59,715 bases of DNA from Cellvibrionales bacterium (GTDB taxonomy: Bacteria > Pseudomonadota > Gammaproteobacteria > Pseudomonadales > JAHEIH01): NCBI GenBank assembly GCA_024639455.1, contig JAHEIH010000010.1, forward strand, positions 1 through 59,715. The letters are read 5' to 3'. The notes under the pieces are model-generated. The model was given only the letters and a program-made list of their open reading frames with translations. It searched no databases and was not told where the DNA came from. The first letter of the stretch is position 1; the number at the start of each line of letters is the position of its first letter. Below are positions 63 to 47,141 of the stretch, piece by piece. The translations under genes were made by a program, and so were the position numbers.

Positions 63-1061
63 TTACTCCACAAGGAACTGGCTATACCACTTCCTAAATT
101 TGGCGAATGGGCCATCACCATCACACAGCATAGGTTTTTCGTAGTATTTTTTTCGGTCCCAAATGATACGGTCTTCTTCCATCTGCTGGACGATATTTTT
201 GATAATCGCCTCACCCACGCGGCCCAATGGGCCTCCAATATCCGCCTTGCGTTGATAAAACGCATAGTAGGCAATGGTGTGTTCATTTGTGACGGGGGTT
301 ACGTTGGCCAATAACAACGTATCGCACAGCCCCTTAAAGCGCACCACCGATAAACCCGGCCCGATGTTGGCATTTTCAATACTGCCTTCAACATTACCAC
401 GCGGTGTGGGCTGCAGGGTTTTCAAAAAGCCTCGGCGAGTATGGCCATCGAAGGACATTTCTTCCGCCATAGGGATATCACTGGTACCGTGAACAAACAT
501 GAAGTGGGCTGGATCAACTGCATTCTCGCCAATTTCCTGCATGTGAGTATTAATTTCCCAACGATGCAAAGAAGGTTCACTCCACTGTTCAGCCTCATCA
601 CTCAGCTCAGGGACAACCTCTGGCTGGAAGTTCGGCGCTTCTTTGTGTGGGTGGTACCACACCAAAATACTGCCATTGACCTCCTGTACAGGCCAGCAAC
701 CAAGCACCTGCTCACCACGGGCTACACGCGGGGGAAGATTCTTGGCATAGGGCACGTCGGTACACTGGCCTTCACCATTAAAGGCCCAGCCATGAAAGGG
801 GCACACGATACTTTCGCCCACCACCGACGATCCTTTACCCGCCTGATCGCGGATGCCATAACCCAAGTGGGCACCCATATGGGGGCAGTAAGCATCCACC
901 ACTTTCGCCATGCCCGACTCGGTACGAAACACCACGAGTTCTTGCCCGAAGTAGGTCAGGGGCTTGGATTCCCCTACCGCCAGTTCGTTTGAATAAAGAA
1001 CATGGAACCAGCCCGAAGGCATGGGCAGCGGGATTCGTGGTTTATCTGAAGCAATAATCAT
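63..1061 (-). CDS. Rieske non-heme iron oxygenase, KshA-like paralogue
   Basis: 332-aa oxygenase subunit. The Rieske [2Fe-2S] ligands are visible as C59-x-H61 and C87-x2-H90, and the mononuclear iron site as N180, D183, H186 and H191 in the C-terminal catalytic domain. The fold order and spacing fit the KshA/cholesterol-desaturase branch of Rieske oxygenases. It therefore probably hydroxylates or desaturates a steroid nucleus, but it is clearly different from the kshA at 42329. No partner reductase lies beside it. It is followed by a terminator and preceded by an SDR gene in the same direction about 15 bp away, so the two are probably co-transcribed. The position of hydroxylation cannot be read from the sequence. 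Confidence 0.85.
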   Translation of the reverse strand: MIIASDKPRIPLPMPSGWFHVLYSNELAVGESKPLTYFGQELVVFRTESGMAKVVDAYCPHMGAHLGYGIRDQAGKGSSVVGESIVCPFHGWAFNGEGQCTDVPYAKNLPPRVARGEQVLGCWPVQEVNGSILVWYHPHKEAPNFQPEVVPELSDEAEQWSEPSLHRWEINTHMQEIGENAVDPAHFMFVHGTSDIPMAEEMSFDGHTRRGFLKTLQPTPRGNVEGSIENANIGPGLSVVRFKGLCDTLLLANVTPVTNEHTIAYYAFYQRKADIGGPLGRVGEAIIKNIVQQMEEDRIIWDRKKYYEKPMLCDGDGPFAKFRKWYSQFLVE

Positions 1062-16260: not shown

Positions 16261-16896
16261 CTAACGTGTGCGGATATTGGGATTGACGCTACCGCGCCGC
16301 ATCCATTGCAAAAAGGATTCCGCCGGTTGAGGCGGAGCTAGCGGAGGTAAATTAGCCACCGCTGGATTTTCCCAAAAGGTTTGCCAACTGGGGAACAATT
16401 GGTGGAAAGCGCCCTTGTAGGGCTCTCGATCAGGCCAACGCATTTTATTATCTCCTACTGGAGGTTTATTGAGATCAGTAGCGTACCAGTAGCAGGGAAG
16501 CCTGCGACGGAAGTACCACTGTTGATCAATGCGCTCGTAGTGATCCCAGTACAACATCTGCATGATGACCCACTCGCTGCCGCCATCAGCACGGGGGGTC
16601 TCGTGTTCATTTTTTGAGTAGACCACACCGATGGCATGATCGGGATCTTCAAATTCAATAATATGATTACCAATATGGTGAGAAGTCCCAATAAACTGCT
16701 GCCTTAGCGTGTCATCCCACCACGTTTTCATGGCGGCGCGACCGAAGGTTTCACGCCCCACTTGAATGTCCTCTGGAAATAAACTCACCATGGCATCTAA
16801 GTCGCGCATGTCGAGTGCTAAGCAATACTTAGCAACCAACTGACGGATGGCATCAAGCGACTCAAGACGATCAATGCGATTTAATAATTCGTTCAT
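16261..16896 (-). CDS. NTF2/SnoaL-fold protein
   Basis: 211 aa. The first ~140 residues follow the SnoaL_4/NTF2 pattern (IRQLVAKYCLALDMRDLDAMVSLF, then the strand HHIGNHIIEFEDPDHAIGVVYSK and WYFRRR), followed by a proline-rich C-terminal extension not typical of the fold. Its ATG overlaps the stop of the upstream delta4-(5alpha)-dehydrogenase gene (ATGA, 16893-16896), so the two are translationally coupled. It may bind or isomerise the dehydrogenase's product. No full KSI triad is recognised. Confidence 0.7.
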   Translation of the reverse strand: MNELLNRIDRLESLDAIRQLVAKYCLALDMRDLDAMVSLFPEDIQVGRETFGRAAMKTWWDDTLRQQFIGTSHHIGNHIIEFEDPDHAIGVVYSKNEHETPRADGGSEWVIMQMLYWDHYERIDQQWYFRRRLPCYWYATDLNKPPVGDNKMRWPDREPYKGAFHQLFPSWQTFWENPAVANLPPLAPPQPAESFLQWMRRGSVNPNIRTR

Positions 16897-18368
16897 TCCT
16901 TCTCCTTATTATTGGCCGCTGCGCGACCAGCAAACCGCCCACTCATCGTGGCATCACCCACCGATATGCCCGAGGCATAACCGTCGCCACGGCGCGGCAC
17001 ACCACAGGCTGTTCGCCCGGCTGCATATAAGCCCACTATAAGCTCACCGAGCGTGTTAACCACGTCTCCATCTGGCGACGTCTCAAGCCCACCGAGGGTA
17101 AAATAGGGCATATAAGCACCGTGCCCAGGTGTGCAATCAAGTGCTACCAATGGCGCCTGCAAGGGTTTTAACCAATCCGGCTGTTTGTGAAACATGGGAT
17201 CATGCCCCAGCGCGGCGTGTCGATTATAACTATGAAGCGTTTGTGCCACGGCGTCACGAGGCATTGGTAATGCATCGAGCAGTTCTTCTAGCGTCTCACC
17301 TGTGGCGACAACTGGCGCCCCAAGATAGGCGACCTTTTCATAGTCGCCGTAATCTTCAACACTGAGAATAAAATAGACGGGGCCTGGATCCTGGCGCAGT
17401 AAATAGCTGCCAACACGACCGTGGTAGGCATCTTCGTTGATGAATCGCTGGCCGTGGCAGTTAATTAATACCCCATAGGTCAATGACGCCGGTGGGTAAA
17501 ACGGCAAGCTAACAAAGCCCTCGTGCATATTAATTGCCGAGGCACCCACCGCCATGGCCATTTGAATACCACCCCCGTTATCACCGGGATTGCCAATCGG
17601 CATACTGCAACGCAATAATTCAGGGGCGTATTTTTCTAACATGGCTTTATTCATCGCAAATCCACCAGCACACAACACGACACCTCTCTCGGCGCGAATG
17701 CAGTGCTCCTCCATATCGCGACGAATTAGCAGACCAACCACACGCTGATGATCATCAATAATGAGACGAAGCGCTCTTGTTTCGAGGCTAACCTCAATAT
17801 CACGCTTAGCAATCGCCTCAGCCATTATCTTCATGAACATTGGGCCGCCGTTATCGCCCCATACCTGTAAATTGTGGCCGCGCGGCGCAGACGGAATGTG
17901 GTCGCGGTAAGGCCAAGCCTTCTCACTACCGGTGTATAACAAACCGTCATCGGTCGTCGCCATGACCGCACGCGCTTTTAGTTCGGAGTCTTTAAAGGGA
18001 ACGCCCTGGGCGACCAACCAAACGAAATGCTCGACAGCGTGTTCGCAGTAGCGACGCACTTTTTCAGCATCGGCTTGTGGCCCATTACTTGTGAGAAGAT
18101 AATCATACATCGCCTCTACACTATCGTCGTAGCCACAGGCCTTTTGCACGCGCGTCCCGCCACCGAGATAAATCTCCGCAGAACTGAGAGCTGTAGAACC
18201 CCCGGGTGCCGAAGCGGCATCGATGAGTAGGACTTTTGCGCCCGCATCGGAGGCCTCAATCGCTGCGCAGGCTCCCGCGCCACCAAAACCAACCACGATG
18301 ACATCAGTCGCACTATGCCAGGTGGCGACGTCATTTGTATGTAGAGGAGCAAATGTAGCTTTGGACAT
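16893..18368 (-). CDS. tesI: 3-ketosteroid delta4-(5alpha)-dehydrogenase, TesI type
   Basis: 491-aa FAD enzyme of the KstD/fumarate-reductase flavoprotein family. The FAD motif GFGGAGACAA is at residues 27-36. The segment EIYLGGGTRVQKACGYDD follows, which closely matches the delta4-(5alpha)-ketosteroid dehydrogenase of Rhodococcus jostii RHA1 rather than the SGGG-W-P form of delta1-dehydrogenases. The C-terminus holds GDGYASGISVGD with the Tyr and Ser implicated in that family. It introduces the 4,5 double bond into 5alpha-3-ketosteroids, returning them to the KstD/KshA pathway. It is divergent from the 5-alpha-reductase gene at 18530. Confidence 0.85.
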   Translation of the reverse strand: MSKATFAPLHTNDVATWHSATDVIVVGFGGAGACAAIEASDAGAKVLLIDAASAPGGSTALSSAEIYLGGGTRVQKACGYDDSVEAMYDYLLTSNGPQADAEKVRRYCEHAVEHFVWLVAQGVPFKDSELKARAVMATTDDGLLYTGSEKAWPYRDHIPSAPRGHNLQVWGDNGGPMFMKIMAEAIAKRDIEVSLETRALRLIIDDHQRVVGLLIRRDMEEHCIRAERGVVLCAGGFAMNKAMLEKYAPELLRCSMPIGNPGDNGGGIQMAMAVGASAINMHEGFVSLPFYPPASLTYGVLINCHGQRFINEDAYHGRVGSYLLRQDPGPVYFILSVEDYGDYEKVAYLGAPVVATGETLEELLDALPMPRDAVAQTLHSYNRHAALGHDPMFHKQPDWLKPLQAPLVALDCTPGHGAYMPYFTLGGLETSPDGDVVNTLGELIVGLYAAGRTACGVPRRGDGYASGISVGDATMSGRFAGRAAANNKEKE

Positions 18369-18420
18369 AGCGATTCCTTGTTATTGAGGACACATTAAGT
18401 GCCCTTTAAAAACAACGCAG

Positions 18421-18438
18421 CGTCCATTTGGACGATAG
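18421..18438. promoter_or_regulatory. CGTCCA-TT-TGGACG palindrome, candidate operator
   Basis: A perfect palindrome with 6-bp arms at 18421-18434 lies in the 160-bp gap between the divergent tesI-like and 5-alpha-reductase genes. The right arm extends into TGGACGATAG (18429-18438), an identical 10-mer of which occurs at 47142-47151 in another divergent steroid-gene promoter. Confidence 0.45.
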
Positions 18439-18489: not shown

Positions 18490-18529
18490 CTTAGGGTAAG
18501 CACATCGATAACAACAGGAGATGCCCACC

Positions 18530-19330
18530 ATGCAGTGGTATACCGGAAACACATTTTATGACTCGCTTTTAATCGCAGGTTTTGCCTACGTTGTGCTCAT
18601 TTTTGTGGGCAGTCTTTTTGGCACCGCGGCCTACGGCGGCCGTTTTGGCCAAGGCAAGCGTAACAAAGGCATTAAGTTGCACGCTAAAACAGGCTGGATC
18701 ATAATGGAGTTGCCGGGCATCATCGTATTCCCAGTGGTATTTTTCATGGGCAGCAACGCCGATCAAGCAGTCCCACTTTTCTTTTTGGCGATCTGGATGA
18801 TGCATTACACCAACCGCGCCCTGATTACCCCTTTGTTGATGCGCGTTCAGCCTGGCACGAGTTCATCGTTTGCGCTTAATGTGGTCATCGCAGGTTGGAT
18901 AACGCTCTTCCTCCACGGTTACTTCAATGCGGCATACATTTCAGAACTGGGCAGTCAGTACACCATCGAATGGTTCAGCGACCCACGCTTCCAAATTGGA
19001 CTCGCCATCTACGCCTTCGGGTTCATCTTAAACATTCACTCGGATTACATTTTGCGCAATTTACGCAGTAAAAATCCAAGCCCCGATGAGCCACGCTACA
19101 AAATTCCCTTCGGTGGTGGCTTCAGATTTGTCACCTGCCCACAGTATCTTGGCGAGATCCTCTCTTTCATTGGTTTTGCAGTGATGACGTGGAACCTTGG
19201 CGCTGTGTTTGTAATGGCGATGACGATTGGCAACTTGGTTCCCCGCGCGATTTATACCCACCGCTGGTTTCACAAGAATTTTGACAACTATCCAAAAGAA
19301 CGCAAAGCCGTCATACCCTTCGTGCTGTAG
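18530..19330 (+). CDS. Membrane 3-oxo-5-alpha-steroid 4-dehydrogenase (steroid 5-alpha-reductase)
   Basis: 266-aa integral membrane protein of the SRD5A family (C-terminal steroid_dh domain). Key elements align with human SRD5A2: an I-M-E-L-P turn with the Glu equivalent to E57 (E60 here), H92-Y93-x-N95-R96 equivalent to the HY-HR around Y91, and a C-terminal YKIPFGG with FLGEI-like YLGEI and YTHRWF-YPKERKAVIPF equivalent to the NADPH-binding end. It should reduce the 4,5 double bond of 3-keto-4-ene steroids with NADPH. The start at 18530 is chosen because AGGAG (18516-18520) abuts the earlier ATG at 18521. It is divergent from the enzyme that reverses its reaction. Confidence 0.88.
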   Translation: MQWYTGNTFYDSLLIAGFAYVVLIFVGSLFGTAAYGGRFGQGKRNKGIKLHAKTGWIIMELPGIIVFPVVFFMGSNADQAVPLFFLAIWMMHYTNRALITPLLMRVQPGTSSSFALNVVIAGWITLFLHGYFNAAYISELGSQYTIEWFSDPRFQIGLAIYAFGFILNIHSDYILRNLRSKNPSPDEPRYKIPFGGGFRFVTCPQYLGEILSFIGFAVMTWNLGAVFVMAMTIGNLVPRAIYTHRWFHKNFDNYPKERKAVIPFVL

Positions 19331-35515: not shown

Positions 35516-36019
35516 ATGACTCCTACAGATAGCAAAGCACTGCGTAACGCGTTTGGTCATTTCGCCACTGGGGTAACTGTCGTGACCACCATGGGAAAAG
35601 ACTTGGAAACAGGGCACCCCAAGCCCGTGGCGATGACCGCAAACAGCTTTTCTTCCGTATCGCTCGACCCACCATTGGTGCTATGGAGCATCGACAAGGG
35701 CTCAAAAAGCTACGGCGCTTACACCAACAATGACCACTTTGCTATCCACATTCTACACAGTGGACAACAGGACCTATCTAACCGCTGTGCGAGCCGAGAT
35801 ATCGATAAATTTGCCGGCGTGGAATGGAGTCAGGGTATTGGTGATGCGCCACTATTTGATGATTTTAGCTGTCGCTTTCAATGCGTTGTAGAACACCGCT
35901 ATGAAGGTGGCGACCACCAAATCATTGTCGGTCGCGTCTTGGACTATAAGTGCAAAACCGATCATTCAACTAATCAGCCGCTATTGTTCTTTAAAGGACA
36001 ATATTGCGACGTGGCATAA
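35516..36019 (+). CDS. hsaB: HsaB-like flavin reductase
   Basis: 167-aa flavin:NAD(P)H reductase of the HpaC/HsaB family. FGHFATGVTVVTTMG is at the N-terminus, MTANSFSSVSLDPPLVLWSI forms the flavin-binding core, and DHQIIVGRVLD is the late strand. It supplies reduced flavin to the HsaA monooxygenase 24 bp downstream. AGAGGA precedes the ATG at an acceptable spacing. Confidence 0.85.
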   Translation: MTPTDSKALRNAFGHFATGVTVVTTMGKDLETGHPKPVAMTANSFSSVSLDPPLVLWSIDKGSKSYGAYTNNDHFAIHILHSGQQDLSNRCASRDIDKFAGVEWSQGIGDAPLFDDFSCRFQCVVEHRYEGGDHQIIVGRVLDYKCKTDHSTNQPLLFFKGQYCDVA

Positions 36020-40811: not shown

Positions 40812-41954
40812 ATGCAGCAACCCTCACTGGAAGAACTCTCCGAACTTCTCGGCTATTTGTATGATGGACATATCGAAGAAGACCCCTATGGGGTTTTCCT
40901 CGATAAGATGCGCGCTTTAATCAACGCCAATTTTGCTTCCATTACCATGCGCGAACCTTCTAATGAAGACGGTGGTTTGATATTTATATCGTGCGACAAA
41001 TTGCAAAAAACCTATGCCGATGCTCACGATAATCCTTACACCGATAAATATTACACCTCTAACCTGATGAATAACCTGCCATGGAGCGAGGTAATGACAC
41101 TCGACCAATGCAGTCCGTATTCACAACTTGAACAGACAGAGCTTTACAAGTTCTGTATGAAACCATTAGATATCTACCATATGATTGGCATGGATCTCCG
41201 CAATGCCTATGGGCAACGATTCAGCGTTAGATTTTGCCGTTCGAAAGACACTCATAATTTCAGTGCTGATGTGAAGCAATTTTTAAGCATGATGGCACCG
41301 CATATCCAGCGCGCCGTTGCCAATGGCATACAACTTATCAACCTCGATCACGAGCGTCGCCTCTACAGTAAAACACTAACGAGTAAGTCTATTGGTATTG
41401 TGACCCTAGACGAGAAAGCAAAGGTCCTATCACGCAATAGTGTTGCGGACGATTTATTGCGCGATAAAGATGGATTCCATATCGTCAACGACCTCATCCA
41501 TTTTGATAGTGGTAAAAATAAAACTAAGTTCTATGAATACTTGGGCGAAATCCTAAAGGCTCAGCGCCACAATGAACAAGCAGCCGTTTTCGCCCTATCT
41601 GTAGAAAGACCGTCAGGCAAAAGTCCTCTCGAAGTGTTAATTAAACCTATGATGATAGACCCCTCTGTGGAACCCAGTCGCACGCCCCACATGATGGTAT
41701 TTATTAACGCGCCAGAGAAACAATACGACATTGATATCAAAATTTTAATGGCGCTTTACCAGCTAACCCGGGCCGAAGCACTGCTTGCGAAACTGCTTGC
41801 AGAGGGAGCCAACCTCGACCAAAGTGCGGCCCAATTAGGAATCTCTCGCAACACAGCGCGCGCGCAACTGCGCTCGATCTTCGCCAAAACCGGCGTATCG
41901 CAGCAATCGATGTTGGTGAGTTTGATTCTGAAGAGTCTGGTGACGATTTCTTAA
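40812..41954 (+). CDS. LuxR-type regulator, TeiR/TesR-like
   Basis: 380-aa regulator. A C-terminal LuxR helix-turn-helix (YQLTRAEALLAKLLAEGA, AAQLGISRNTARAQLRSIFAKTG) follows a long N-terminal sensory part of no obvious autoinducer type. Its size, DNA-binding end and position behind hsaEGF match TeiR/TesR, the testosterone-responsive activator of Comamonas testosteroni. It probably activates the meta-cleavage operon; the effector is inferred. A 75-bp gap separates it from hsaF. No TetR-type KstR-like regulator is present in the window. Confidence 0.8.
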   Translation: MQQPSLEELSELLGYLYDGHIEEDPYGVFLDKMRALINANFASITMREPSNEDGGLIFISCDKLQKTYADAHDNPYTDKYYTSNLMNNLPWSEVMTLDQCSPYSQLEQTELYKFCMKPLDIYHMIGMDLRNAYGQRFSVRFCRSKDTHNFSADVKQFLSMMAPHIQRAVANGIQLINLDHERRLYSKTLTSKSIGIVTLDEKAKVLSRNSVADDLLRDKDGFHIVNDLIHFDSGKNKTKFYEYLGEILKAQRHNEQAAVFALSVERPSGKSPLEVLIKPMMIDPSVEPSRTPHMMVFINAPEKQYDIDIKILMALYQLTRAEALLAKLLAEGANLDQSAAQLGISRNTARAQLRSIFAKTGVSQQSMLVSLILKSLVTIS

Positions 41955-41959
41955 ATATA

Positions 41960-41975
41960 CGCCCTAGGCAGGGCG
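41960..41975. terminator. Weak hairpin between convergent LuxR and KSI genes
   Basis: CGCCCT/AGGGCG with loop AGGC (41960-41965 with 41970-41975) overlaps the KSI stop. No long T run follows, so termination is uncertain. Confidence 0.3.
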
Positions 41976-42326
41976 CATATTAGCTTCGCTCCAAAAAGCT
42001 CGCATTTGACAGACCTTTCCCGCCTCATCAAATCTGAAGGTATCGATGATATTCATCACCATCGCCTGGCCGTTAAAGGTCATTTGAAGTTCAAAGGGGA
42101 ATGCCGCCTCGTCACCCGCAAGGCGCACCTCTCCAGTTAATTCCGCTACACGAATACTTCCAAGGGCCGCGCTGTAAAATGCTCTAATTGCGGTGTGCCC
42201 CTGAATAGGCGAAGAACCCACAGGATCCTCGATCGTGGCATTGTCTGCATATAGACCAACAATCGCTTCGATGTCAGCACTGCACAGCGCGTTCAGGTAA
42301 GCCTTGATAGTATTAACGGGGGACAT
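41964..42326 (-). CDS. ksi: Delta5-3-ketosteroid isomerase (KSI)
   Basis: 120-aa NTF2-fold isomerase. The catalytic residues align with Comamonas KSI at a constant offset of four: Y10 (Tyr14), D34 in TIEDPVGS (Asp38) and D95 in IIDTFRF (Asp99). It moves the 5,6 double bond of 5-ene-3-ketosteroids to 4,5. The length matches KSI (125-131 aa). It lies directly downstream of kshA (2 bp gap) in the same direction. Confidence 0.92.
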   Translation of the reverse strand: MSPVNTIKAYLNALCSADIEAIVGLYADNATIEDPVGSSPIQGHTAIRAFYSAALGSIRVAELTGEVRLAGDEAAFPFELQMTFNGQAMVMNIIDTFRFDEAGKVCQMRAFWSEANMRPA

Positions 42327-42328
42327 TC

Positions 42329-43429
42329 TTATGCCCCCGCAAAGGGCAAACCATCGTCAATCGCATGGTTTGCCTCAGCTGGCGTTGTCACACCAGGTAC
42401 ATGATAGATACCGTTTACCTGTGATTGAATCGCGGCAGCATCTTCACGTTTGGCATAGAACTGTGAATACCACTTGCGGCCCTTCGCGAAAGGACCATCG
42501 CTTTTAAGACCCATGATTTTAGTGGCGGGCACTTTGTGCTGCCAAATCTGGAAATCAGTCGCAAAGGCTTCTAACGCTCCCGCCTGTGTCATTTTCGCCA
42601 TCTCGCGATCGGCATCGGTCACCACCTCTGACGCGGCTTTCACCAGACAACCGTGCCAGCACTTGCTCACGCCGTCATCGACGGGGGTATTAGCGATGAA
42701 CTCGTAGGAGGTGCTTTCGCCCCACACCTGCTTAGACAACAACACGCCCGGGCCGGTGTACCACGTTGAGGTATACAACATCACACAGCCGTACAACTGC
42801 ATTGGCCCACCTTGACGCTGTACATAAATGTGATCAATCGCTTGGTTTTCAAAGTACTGACAGGGAGCCCCATGGGTGGGGCCTAAATGGCGAATATCCG
42901 ACATGTTATCGAGAATTTCTTGTGGGTGTACTGGCAATTCACCCAAGTGGTCGAGCGTCCAGTGTATCCACTGTGGATGATCCCACTCAGGCAATTTAGG
43001 CGTGGAATAATCGGGCTCACCGCCTTCTTCATCGTGCCACATCATGATACAACCCATGTTCTCCACCACATGGTAGCTACTAATAGCGGCTGATTTTGGG
43101 CAGGGACCGTCGTGGTATGGAATATCGTCGACTTCACCTTTGTCGTTGTAGCGCCATCCATGGTAGGGGCAGCGAATGGCGTCACCCTCAATCTGCATAC
43201 CGTTGCGTACGATCATGGCTGAATTACTTTTGGCCAAATGCGTACCCATATGCTTGCAATAGGCATCCAGCATGACCGGTTTACCACTTTGGCCTCTAAA
43301 GATAATCATGTCTTTGCCAAAGAATCTAACGCCAATCGGCCCTGCGTCGATCTCATTGGCCTCGGCAACAACGAACCAGCCACGAGGAAAGGTATGTGGA
43401 CCAAGATTGTATTCAACAGACTTCGCCAT
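42329..43429 (-). CDS. kshA: 3-ketosteroid 9alpha-hydroxylase oxygenase KshA
   Basis: 366-aa Rieske oxygenase. Rieske ligands C58-x-H60 and C87-x2-H90, and mononuclear iron ligands near N175, D178, H181 and H186 (MSDIRHLGPTHG). The sequence (THLAKSNS, RCPYHGWRYND, HPQEILDNMSDIRHL) matches the KshA group. It 9alpha-hydroxylates 3-ketosteroids so that ring B opens. Ribosome site AGGAGA precedes the ATG. No kshB is in the window; the divergent neighbour is a rubredoxin-reductase fusion. Confidence 0.88.
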   Translation of the reverse strand: MAKSVEYNLGPHTFPRGWFVVAEANEIDAGPIGVRFFGKDMIIFRGQSGKPVMLDAYCKHMGTHLAKSNSAMIVRNGMQIEGDAIRCPYHGWRYNDKGEVDDIPYHDGPCPKSAAISSYHVVENMGCIMMWHDEEGGEPDYSTPKLPEWDHPQWIHWTLDHLGELPVHPQEILDNMSDIRHLGPTHGAPCQYFENQAIDHIYVQRQGGPMQLYGCVMLYTSTWYTGPGVLLSKQVWGESTSYEFIANTPVDDGVSKCWHGCLVKAASEVVTDADREMAKMTQAGALEAFATDFQIWQHKVPATKIMGLKSDGPFAKGRKWYSQFYAKREDAAAIQSQVNGIYHVPGVTTPAEANHAIDDGLPFAGA

Positions 43430-43474
43430 ATTGTTCTCCTTATAATGATGAATCGAGTATAGCCAAGCGCTTTT

Positions 43475-43491
43475 TACGGAAATCGTCCGTA
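43475..43491. promoter_or_regulatory. TACGGA-AATCG-TCCGTA palindrome, candidate operator
   Basis: A perfect palindrome (6-bp arms, 5-bp spacer) lies in the 145-bp gap between divergent kshA and the rubredoxin-reductase fusion gene. It contains ATCGTCC, shared with the elements at 18429-18438 and 47142-47151 on the opposite strand. Confidence 0.45.
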
Positions 43492-43574
43492 TGGATGAGA
43501 TAGCGCAATTAGGCCTTCAAACCTAGTTTTGTTTAACGCCATAATAGCCCACATTAATCATCGATGAGGTTGAT

Positions 43575-45239
43575 ATGACGACATACAAAGTCTGGGAATG
43601 CATCGTTTGTGGATTCATATACGATGAATCAGTCGGTCTACCGGAAGAAGGTTTTGCGCCGGGCACGCGCTGGGAAGACATCCCCGAAGATTGGCTGTGC
43701 CCAGAGTGCGGGGTGGGCAAAATGGACTTTGAAATGATCGAAGTGAAACAAGTAGCCGCGGCGATGGCAACAATCTCAAACGGCGAAAATTCAACAGCCA
43801 CTGTCGTTGAAGATTTAGCGCCCGCCTCGATCGCTCATAATGGCGACCCCTACAAGAAATGGGAATGCATCGTGTGTGGCTGGCAATATGACGAAGCCCT
43901 GGGGTGGCCTGAAGACGGTATTGCTCCCGGCACACGCTGGGAAGATGTCCCAGAAGATTGGGTCTGCCCCGAGTGCGGTGTAGGTAAACTGGATTTTGAA
44001 ATGGTCGCTGTGAGCGAGCACACGCCTATTGACACTACAAGCGCCGATGCGGCGCCTGCCGAAGCGCCCGTTGACAAAACAGCCTTTGATGAACTCGACA
44101 GCACATTGGCTCCGGTCGTGATCATCGGCAGTGGTCTAGCGGGCTACAACTTGGCCAGGATGTACCGTCAACAAAACAAACAACGCCCACTGCTCATGCT
44201 CAGCCAAGACGATGCTAGCTTCTACTCTAAACCTGCACTATCGACGGGCATGAACAAAGGTAAAACCGCCATTGGCCTCGTGGCCAAAGAAGCAGAACAA
44301 ATGGCCCGTGACCTCGGTATGGATATTCGCCCCTTCTGCGAGGTGAACCGAATCGACCCCGTTGCTCAAACAGTAGCCACAGACCACGGTTGCTTCAGCT
44401 ATCACCAATTGGTGCTCGCCACCGGTTCGTTAGCGATTCGCCCCTCGATGCAGGGTGACGCGGCGAACAAAGTGCACCAAGTGAACAACCTACACGAATA
44501 CGCCGCCTTCCGTACAGCGATGGCCGGCGCCAAGCGTGTGGTGATTATCGGCGCCGGTTTGATAGGTGCCGAATTCTGTAACGACCTTGTCCTATCTGGC
44601 CACCACATCGATATTATCGACCCCCTGCCGCACATGCTCGGCAACCTGATCCCAGCACCGGCTTCACAAGTGATCGAAGAGGTCTATCGCGGCATGGGCG
44701 TGAATATGCACTTTGGCTTAACAGCACAACGCGTTGACCAGCGTGGTCGCGGCTATCGCGTCACCCTAGCCAATGGCGAAACCATTGACTGTGACGCTGT
44801 ATTATCGGCGGTGGGTGTTCGCCCCAACACCGCACTTGCAGAGGCCTCTGGCATTACCATAGGTCGCGGTATTGTGACGAACGAATACGGTCAAACCAAC
44901 CACGCCAATATCTACGCGCTAGGTGACTGTGCTGAACTGGGCGGCCAAGTACGTCTGTACGTGGCACCCCTTGTGACCAGTGCTGACGCCATCGCCGCGA
45001 CACTCAACGGCAACAGCAAGGCCATCGAGTTACCCGCCATGCCCGTGACGATCAAAACCACCCACCACCCTGTAGTGGTGGTTCCGGTAGCGCGCGATGC
45101 TGAGGGTGAGTGGATTGTTGATCAACGCAGTAATGAAGGGGTAGCGGCGCGCTTTGTTGCGCCCAATGGCCAAATACAGGGCTTTGCATTGACTGGCAAG
45201 TGCACCGCGGAGAAAGATACCTATAGCGCGATGTTATAA
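43575..45239 (+). CDS. Tandem rubredoxin-rubredoxin reductase fusion protein
   Basis: 554-aa electron-transfer protein. Two rubredoxin domains hold the iron cysteines C9/C12/C42/C45 and C98/C101/C131/C134. An Ala/Ser/Thr-rich linker follows. The rest is a FAD/NAD(P)H pyridine-nucleotide oxidoreductase with GSGLAG (185-190), a second Rossmann GAGLIGAEF, a GDCAEL late FAD motif and a rubredoxin-binding-like end. Electrons would flow NADH to FAD to rubredoxin. It is divergent from kshA with a shared regulatory gap, so it is a candidate replacement for KshB. Alternatively it could serve the other Rieske oxygenase or stress defence. Followed by a terminator. Confidence 0.87.
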
Positions 45240-47120: not shown

Positions 47121-47141
47121 AGTCAATACACTTACTTCAGA

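Follow-up and report, generated by a model that had tools for sequence, protein, structure and literature searches.

A tandem-rubredoxin reductase fusion encoded divergently from kshA is a predicted electron donor of 3-ketosteroid 9alpha-hydroxylase in a Cellvibrionales bacterium

The DNA analysed here (the window) is a 59,715-nucleotide contig, JAHEIH010000010.1 of assembly GCA_024639455.1, and is one of the contigs of a Cellvibrionales genome of 2.88 Mb that is 99.5% complete. It carries kshA, whose product family catalyses the ring-opening step of aerobic steroid degradation, and, divergent from it, a gene for a single protein in which two rubredoxin domains are joined to a rubredoxin reductase. 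We predict that this fusion is the electron donor of KshA, likely in place of the reductase KshB, and put the probability of this at roughly 0.64. The prediction draws on the lack of a convincing kshB and of an AlkB-family client in the genome, on the presence of the fusion in nine of nine kshA-bearing genomes of a sister family, on its adjacency to kshA in seven of these nine, and on the linkage of such fusions to other Rieske oxygenases. A preliminary description of this DNA, made from its letters, had already suggested that a rubredoxin-reductase feeds KshA where KshB is missing. That idea is well supported in the genomic comparisons, from which we infer the electron transfer, but the fusion is not exclusive to kshA genomes. 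The pair and the domains of the fusion are as follows.

42329-43429, minus strand: kshA, KshA-family Rieske oxygenase of 366 amino acids (PF00355 and PF19298; phmmer E-value 4e-37 to 4qdc and 3e-34 to 2zyl)
43430-43574: divergent kshA/fusion intergenic region, 145 bp
43575-45239, plus strand: tandem-rubredoxin/rubredoxin-reductase fusion of 554 amino acids (two PF00301, PF07992, PF18113)
43593-43730, plus strand: rubredoxin domain 1 (C9, C12, C42, C45; PF00301, 77.2 bits)
43857-43997, plus strand: rubredoxin domain 2 (C98, C101, C131, C134; PF00301, 81.0 bits)
44115-44942, plus strand: FAD/NAD(P)H pyridine nucleotide-disulphide oxidoreductase domain, residues 181-456 (PF07992, Pyr_redox_2)
45021-45233, plus strand: rubredoxin-binding C-terminal domain, residues 483-553 (PF18113, 79.3 bits)

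Both the Rieske domain and the KshA_C domain (179 bits) of the kshA product score above cut-off, its best PDB matches are KshA structures, and the metal-site His and Asp residues align by eye. The product is predicted to be the oxygenase component of 3-ketosteroid 9alpha-hydroxylase, in the context of a 9,10-seco pathway. Most of this pathway was found in the window by NCBIfam best matches, as the preliminary description had indicated in speaking of a nearly whole pathway, although several names come from matches below cut-off (3-ketosteroid-delta-1-dehydrogenase, FadD3, HsaA, HsaD and 2-oxopent-4-enoate hydratase); acetylating acetaldehyde dehydrogenase and 4-hydroxy-2-oxovalerate aldolase are above theirs. 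The window additionally encodes a flavin reductase (35516-36019) and an extradiol-dioxygenase-type protein. The KshA-family oxygenase and the surrounding 9,10-seco pathway are shared with the KshA/KshB systems of Rhodococcus and Mycobacterium. However, KshB combines a flavin reductase with a plant-type [2Fe-2S] domain, whereas the partner here is a glutathione reductase (GR)-type flavoprotein with two rubredoxins.

The divergent arrangement, the coordinates and domains of the fusion, and the eight cysteines of its two intact rubredoxin sites are confirmed as first described, and all eight cysteines are invariant across 14 aligned fusions. Its reductase domain carries GxGxxG motifs at residues 185 and 326 and a GDC motif at 450. 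An AlphaFold model of the protein (predicted local distance difference test score 77.8, predicted TM-score 0.65) supports the domains, and its closest PDB fold is the Pseudomonas aeruginosa rubredoxin reductase 2v3a (TM-score 0.90 by target), which also matches in sequence. With PF07992, PF18113 and two copies of PF00301, the fusion has the domains that define a rubredoxin--NAD(+) reductase. It does not have those that define KshB, namely a ferredoxin-NADP reductase (FNR)-type flavin/NAD domain with a C-terminal plant-type [2Fe-2S] domain: its FAD/NAD part is GR-type, its iron domains are rubredoxins, and no Fer2 domain is present. The same rubredoxin, reductase and rubredoxin-binding domains make up the AlkG/AlkT alkane system of Pseudomonas and the rubredoxin/reductase pair of P. 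aeruginosa (2v3a, 2v3b); by contrast, they are here fused in one chain with two rubredoxins, in a genome in which no alkane hydroxylase family member was detected. The fusion family is broad, with 1018 proteins matching the rubredoxin part, and is common in Microbulbifer, where Rub-Rub-reductase proteins named 'FAD-dependent oxidoreductase' or 'rubredoxin--NAD(+) reductase' have the same domains.

Fer2 domains were detected in six proteins of the genome, none of them on the window's contig, which bears out the earlier remark that the window holds no KshB-like 2Fe-2S gene. Three of the six are above NCBIfam cut-offs (NqrF, an iron-sulfur cluster (ISC)-type ferredoxin and formate dehydrogenase alpha), and two are below (an AcsV-like protein and a molybdo-hydroxylase iron-sulfur subunit). 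The sixth, a 317-residue protein on contig C11, is the sole one with the KshB layout of a reductase followed by a C-terminal Fer2 domain; all its NCBIfam matches fall well short of the cut-offs, and the end of the Rieske oxygenase gene that goes with it overlaps the reductase gene. Thus no convincing kshB was found in the genome, the only protein of that layout being tied to another Rieske oxygenase gene, as judged from Fer2 domains, their classes and their location, with NCBIfam scans in which no KshB model came up and with no KshB query sequence. The kshB elsewhere in the genome that the preliminary description had allowed for did not turn up in convincing form among these six. Contig C11 (16.5 kb) holds, with the Fer2 reductase, two Rieske oxygenases whose weak resemblance to the 4beta-methylsterol monooxygenase SdmA does not reach the cut-off. 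Contig C16 encodes a ferredoxin reductase of GR type with PF14759, and the genome encodes eight proteins of Rieske-oxygenase size. Both rubredoxin domains detected in the whole genome lie inside the fusion. PF00487, the AlkB/desaturase family, gave no match in this genome and did give matches in control genomes, and the AlkB motif NYxEHYG was not found in the genome in a DNA-level search.

We then compared the window with related genomes, which carry our own labels (G for genomes, L for loci, f for families). The sister family f41 comprises 112 genomes and includes the SAR92 clade. With kshA orthologs required to be at least 65% identical (found range 65-77%), nine of the 112 have one; G448 and G449 have a KshA relative of only 39-40% identity and no fusion. 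A tandem fusion is present in all nine kshA-bearing genomes, split by a contig end in G417. It is divergent from and adjacent to kshA, as in the window, in G158, G221, G438, G411, G351, G415 and G417, and lies away from kshA in G134 and G334. By comparison, five of the 103 f41 genomes that lack a kshA ortholog have a tandem fusion or a partial match (Fisher p 4e-10, not corrected for descent), and single-rubredoxin matches occur in four kshA-less members (G473, G474, G481 and G484). In the genus-mate G010 (75% complete), the contig ends within kshA, on the side where a partner gene would be expected.

Across the order, we scored at most three candidates per genome and counted a fusion as strict if it had no internal stops; 29 genomes with rubredoxin and reductase matches broken by stops were treated as ambiguous. 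Strict fusions were found in 39 of 60 kshA-bearing genomes and in 35 of 330 others, counts that are not corrected for descent, and including the ambiguous genomes changes this to 45 of 60 and 58 of 330. The association between kshA and the fusion at this level is strong, but not exclusive.

To look at KshB in relatives, we scanned 22 genomes, 20 with kshA and two without, for Fer2 proteins. Half of the kshA genomes have no Fer2 protein of 300-400 amino acids (G010, G158, G438, G411, G351, G350, G200, G383, G206 and G015), and seven of these ten are 94-100% complete (G158, G411, G351, G350, G200, G383 and G015). The Fer2 protein of 406-408 amino acids in each of the ten is NqrF, and the 521-residue one of G383 is a xanthine dehydrogenase small subunit. 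Elsewhere, the scanned proteins with a C-terminal Fer2 domain in G134, G334, G415, G003 and G290 are PaaE, above the NCBIfam cut-off, and the Fer2 domain is N-terminal in the proteins of G221 and G417 and in second proteins of G334, G003 and G290. G290 holds further such reductases beyond those classified, and G037 has ten of 300-400 amino acids. Among the steroid genes of G037, and likewise of G320, lies one reductase that scores below the PaaE cut-off; the two are 47% identical to each other and KshB-like, and no rubredoxin-reductase fusion was found in either genome. This distribution of KshB-like reductase and fusion is what would be expected of two alternative donors, on few genomes. G350 (98% complete, in one contig) has a single-rubredoxin fusion adjoining the KstD-like part of its steroid cluster. 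We also considered whether KshA itself carries a rubredoxin-docking trait. In the KshA proteins compared here, 25-29 residues separate the two Rieske ligand pairs, and the window's protein has ten residues more at this point than actinobacterial KshA. A long gap as such a trait was ruled out, since the KshA proteins of the fusion-less G037 and G320, with their KshB-like reductases, share it.

A tree of 47 KshA sequences suggests that the pairing does not simply follow the descent of kshA. The eight kshA genes adjacent to a fusion, the window's included, were named as a group after the tree was seen, and they are not one clade: forcing them together costs 85.6 log units (approximately unbiased test, p-AU 0.00048), and the arrangement takes three state changes. 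The kshA genes of G351, G411 and G415 group with genes of family f40 (wider group support 84/89) and yet occupy the same position next to the fusion. These three genomes keep the pair but differ on one side of it; in G411, the gene after kshA encodes a protein 91% identical to G410's sodium:solute symporter, whereas the window has the SnoaL-like gene, the regulator gene and hsa genes there. Two histories would account for this, replacement of kshA at its site or repeated origin of the arrangement, and both argue for a functional tie. The flanks of G410 and G411 are 91% identical in the symporter and 62% in a BatD-like protein. At L283:6565-8238 (G410) and L284:6880-8553 (G407), the fusion stays beside the symporter gene, and kshA and the adjacent steroid genes are missing.

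Fusions of this kind also stand beside other Rieske oxygenases. In G134 and G334, the relocated fusion is divergent from a gene run that ends about 5 kb away in a Rieske/Ring_hydroxyl_A oxygenase, with a MarR-type gene in G134. An uncultured Pseudoteredinibacter has a homologous run (Rieske protein 52% and thiolase-like protein 64% identical), which continues on one strand into a Ring_hydroxyl_B subunit and a tandem-rubredoxin fusion. The whole single-strand order at this locus (L152:1755-9764) is AMP-ligase-like, thiolase-like, ChsH2-like, short-chain dehydrogenase/reductase-like, Rieske alpha, beta subunit and tandem-rubredoxin reductase, an apparent Rieske oxygenase operon with a putative rubredoxin donor. 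In G305, a tight run (L117:4313-9907) encodes a GbcA-like Rieske oxygenase, an aldehyde dehydrogenase, a single-rubredoxin reductase fusion and an FAD oxidase, and perhaps represents quaternary-amine catabolism with a putative rubredoxin donor. To count such neighbourhoods, we took 27 tandem fusions in stretches of 3.9-18 kb, duplicates dropped, and detected Rieske oxygenases by one wide motif pattern. A Rieske oxygenase lies near 12 of the 27: eight are KshA, three are of alpha type, and one is of KshA_C type about 6 kb away (isolate SAT230). Linkage of rubredoxin/reductase and Rieske oxygenase genes is thus found in eight kshA genomes, the window's included, and at three Ring_hydroxyl_A loci. 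Around the f15/Microbulbifer fusions, this motif found no Rieske oxygenase in the stretches, and a flavin reductase gene adjoins several of them. At L107, L109, L111, L116 and L295, from G009 and four f15 genomes, the gene adjoining the tandem fusion is 41-48% identical to the window's flavin reductase at 35516-36019.

The intergenic region holds two overlapping palindromes, and a second copy of one of them lies elsewhere in the window.

43483-43498: conserved palindrome TCGTCC-N4-GGACGA with one mismatch, a predicted operator whose centre is separated from the kshA start by 62 bp and from the fusion start by 84 bp
43475-43491: palindrome TACGGA-N5-TCCGTA
18420-18435: second site of the conserved palindrome, with one mismatch, in the gap that separates the divergent genes 16893-18368 and 18521-19330

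The preliminary description had named the palindrome at 43475 as shared by the two genes. It is present, but is not conserved in seven relatives with the same arrangement, whereas the one it overlaps at 43483-43498 is: TCGTCC-N4-GGACGA occurs with 0-2 mismatches in eight of eight kshA/fusion intergenic regions. The window has two sites with at most one mismatch against 0.025 expected by chance, for a pattern that was drawn from these same regions, and G134 has a copy with two mismatches 61 bp ahead of its kshA. The palindrome at 43483-43498 is best read as a predicted kshA operator that could act on the fusion too, and the copy at 18420-18435, together with weaker sites with three mismatches such as the one at 47133, may mark a steroid regulon.

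Taken as KshA's donor, the fusion would receive electrons from NAD(P)H, either NADH or NADPH, on its FAD. From the FAD they would go to the iron of one or the other tethered rubredoxin while it sits at the C-terminal rubredoxin-binding domain. The reduced rubredoxin would then hand them singly to KshA, first to its Rieske [2Fe-2S] cluster and on to the mononuclear iron, for 9alpha-hydroxylation and opening of the ring. Such an oxygenase needs two electrons per turnover, for which a pair of tethered one-electron carriers would be well suited. The conserved palindrome would control the two genes.

Several observations weigh against the fusion as the donor of KshA. Strict fusions are missing from 21 of the 60 kshA-bearing genomes of the order; six of these are ambiguous and five are less than 90% complete, and among the other ten KshB was examined in G037 and G320 only, the remaining eight (G029, G114, G138, G150, G164, G173, G239 and G327) being 91-100% complete. 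Conversely, tandem fusions occur without kshA in G009 and several genomes of f15, the Microbulbifer family, and within f41 in G407, G410 and G477, with partial ones in G482 and G433; in G410 and G407 the fusion is kept beside genes that flank kshA in G411, with kshA itself absent. No Rieske oxygenase lies near 15 of the 27 tandem fusions, although two of these are on contigs shorter than 8 kb. The palindrome centre is fixed relative to the kshA start (62-66 bp) and not to the fusion start (84-174 bp), and no copy of it was found ahead of the fusions of G134 and G334, which lie away from kshA. Finally, the C16 ferredoxin reductase, the ISC-type [2Fe-2S] ferredoxin and the C11 reductase might each reduce KshA, and exchange of Rieske reductases is reported to be fairly permissive (PMC12445004). 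Of the co-occurrence of fusion and kshA without kshB, which the preliminary description had proposed to look for, the joint presence of fusion and kshA is upheld in the nine f41 genomes, and ten of the 20 scanned kshA genomes have no Fer2 protein of 300-400 amino acids, but a strict version in which the fusion occurs only where kshA does is rejected by G410, G407, G477 and G009.

These points bear differently on the alternatives. One is that the fusion supplies many Rieske oxygenases of the cell as a general donor, with KshA as one client and the site beside kshA as one convenient place, a view for and against which we find the evidence evenly poised. The eight proteins of Rieske-oxygenase size face one KshB-layout reductase, which is encoded behind its own oxygenase, and this numerical mismatch, the association of tandem fusions with a different Rieske oxygenase in G134, G334 and Pseudoteredinibacter, the single-rubredoxin fusion beside the GbcA-like oxygenase and the fusions that persist without kshA in G410 and G407 all speak for it. 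Yet the window's genome and seven of the nine f41 genomes keep the fusion exactly beside kshA, with kshA genes that are not one clade. Other Rieske oxygenases are probably also clients of the fusion. We consider it unlikely that KshA is instead fed by the C11 reductase, or by the C16 ferredoxin reductase with a [2Fe-2S] ferredoxin, and that the fusion serves something else. All these proteins are encoded in the genome, and the exchangeability of Rieske reductases between systems noted above would allow it; however, the C11 gene overlaps the end of its own oxygenase gene, G158, G351 and G411 keep the kshA/fusion pair with no Fer2 reductase of 300-400 amino acids (their 407-residue protein being NqrF), and a motif search of the kshA stretches gave no Fer2 protein except one of 93 amino acids 4 kb from kshA in G320. 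Least probable, and in our view improbable by a wide margin, is that the fusion is a conventional rubredoxin reductase, working for an alkane hydroxylase or some other enzyme that depends on rubredoxin, and came to lie in the steroid cluster by chance. Rubredoxin and rubredoxin reductase are known AlkB partners (a gene cluster in PMC4591350), and 11 of 17 f41 genomes, including all five fusion carriers among them, have the AlkB motif. Against this, the window's genome has neither PF00487 nor the AlkB motif, six f41 genomes have the motif and no fusion, and the divergent adjacency to kshA recurs in eight genomes.

The preliminary description regarded rubredoxin with a Rieske oxygenase as an unusual pairing, and here it has to be corrected. 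In Rhodococcus, rubredoxin genes stand beside or are needed by a Rieske oxygenase, as in the Nar naphthalene dioxygenase with rub1/rub2 and in o-xylene oxidation by R. opacus TKN14 (excerpts of PMC5209329 and PMC4591350); as described there, the rubredoxins are small separate proteins and the oxygenase is an aromatic one, with neither a tandem fusion nor KshA involved. In the excerpts concerned, PMC5209329 treats rubredoxin and KshA as separate queries and hits and does not propose them as a pair, and PMC4881515 lists rubredoxin as one glycerol-specific transcript and proposes no KshA pairing. A KshA-rubredoxin pairing was not found in the literature searched, which leaves out most subscription journals. 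The tandem fusion with KshA would thus be a new form of a pairing already on record. KshB has been assigned in Comamonas as open reading frame ORF17 (PMC4810484) and in Pseudomonas Chol1, and, according to a 2021 review, is reported missing in Sphingobium Chol11 and C. tardaugens (PMC8399759). That review was all that a search on the question of the donor brought up.

Three further genes of the window touch on this locus.

41964-42326, minus strand: SnoaL-like protein gene directly downstream of kshA, 120 amino acids (PF12680)
40812-41954, plus strand: regulator with a C-terminal helix-turn-helix, 380 amino acids, LuxR-type through weak matches alone
63-1061, minus strand: second KshA_C-family Rieske oxygenase, a possible further client (PF00355 and PF19298)

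A SnoaL-like homolog lies downstream of kshA in six f41 relatives (G158, G221, G134, G334, G438 and G417) and in G010, and was not seen next to kshA in G351, G411 and G415. The regulator matches PF00196 (E 0.003) and PF13556 (E 6e-5), neither of which reaches the curated cut-off, and orthologs with 67-71% identity are close to kshA in the same six relatives. That this regulator binds the palindrome is a guess. Homologs of the oxygenase at 63-1061 lie a few kb from kshA in G350, G279, G062 and G360, and KshA and this oxygenase may act in one pathway.

Textbook electron donors of Rieske oxygenases are plant-type, Rieske-type and [3Fe-4S] ferredoxins with FNR and GR reductases. Single-chain NAD(P)H-FAD-rubredoxin-rubredoxin proteins could be an overlooked class of Rieske redox partner in marine gammaproteobacteria, with KshA as a client in lineages that lack KshB and at least one oxygenase of the alpha/beta aromatic type as another, a generalisation that we think could fall either way. 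If it is true, the list of Rieske donors needs a rubredoxin entry with its own architecture. If the fusion does feed KshA, rubredoxin, otherwise a partner of alkane hydroxylases and of a few dioxygenases of Rhodococcus, would gain a steroid Rieske monooxygenase as a client. The fusion would then also offer a one-gene redox partner for 9alpha-hydroxylation in biotechnology. The locus provides a concrete, testable donor candidate for a lineage without KshB, and bears on the missing-KshB problem of other proteobacteria.

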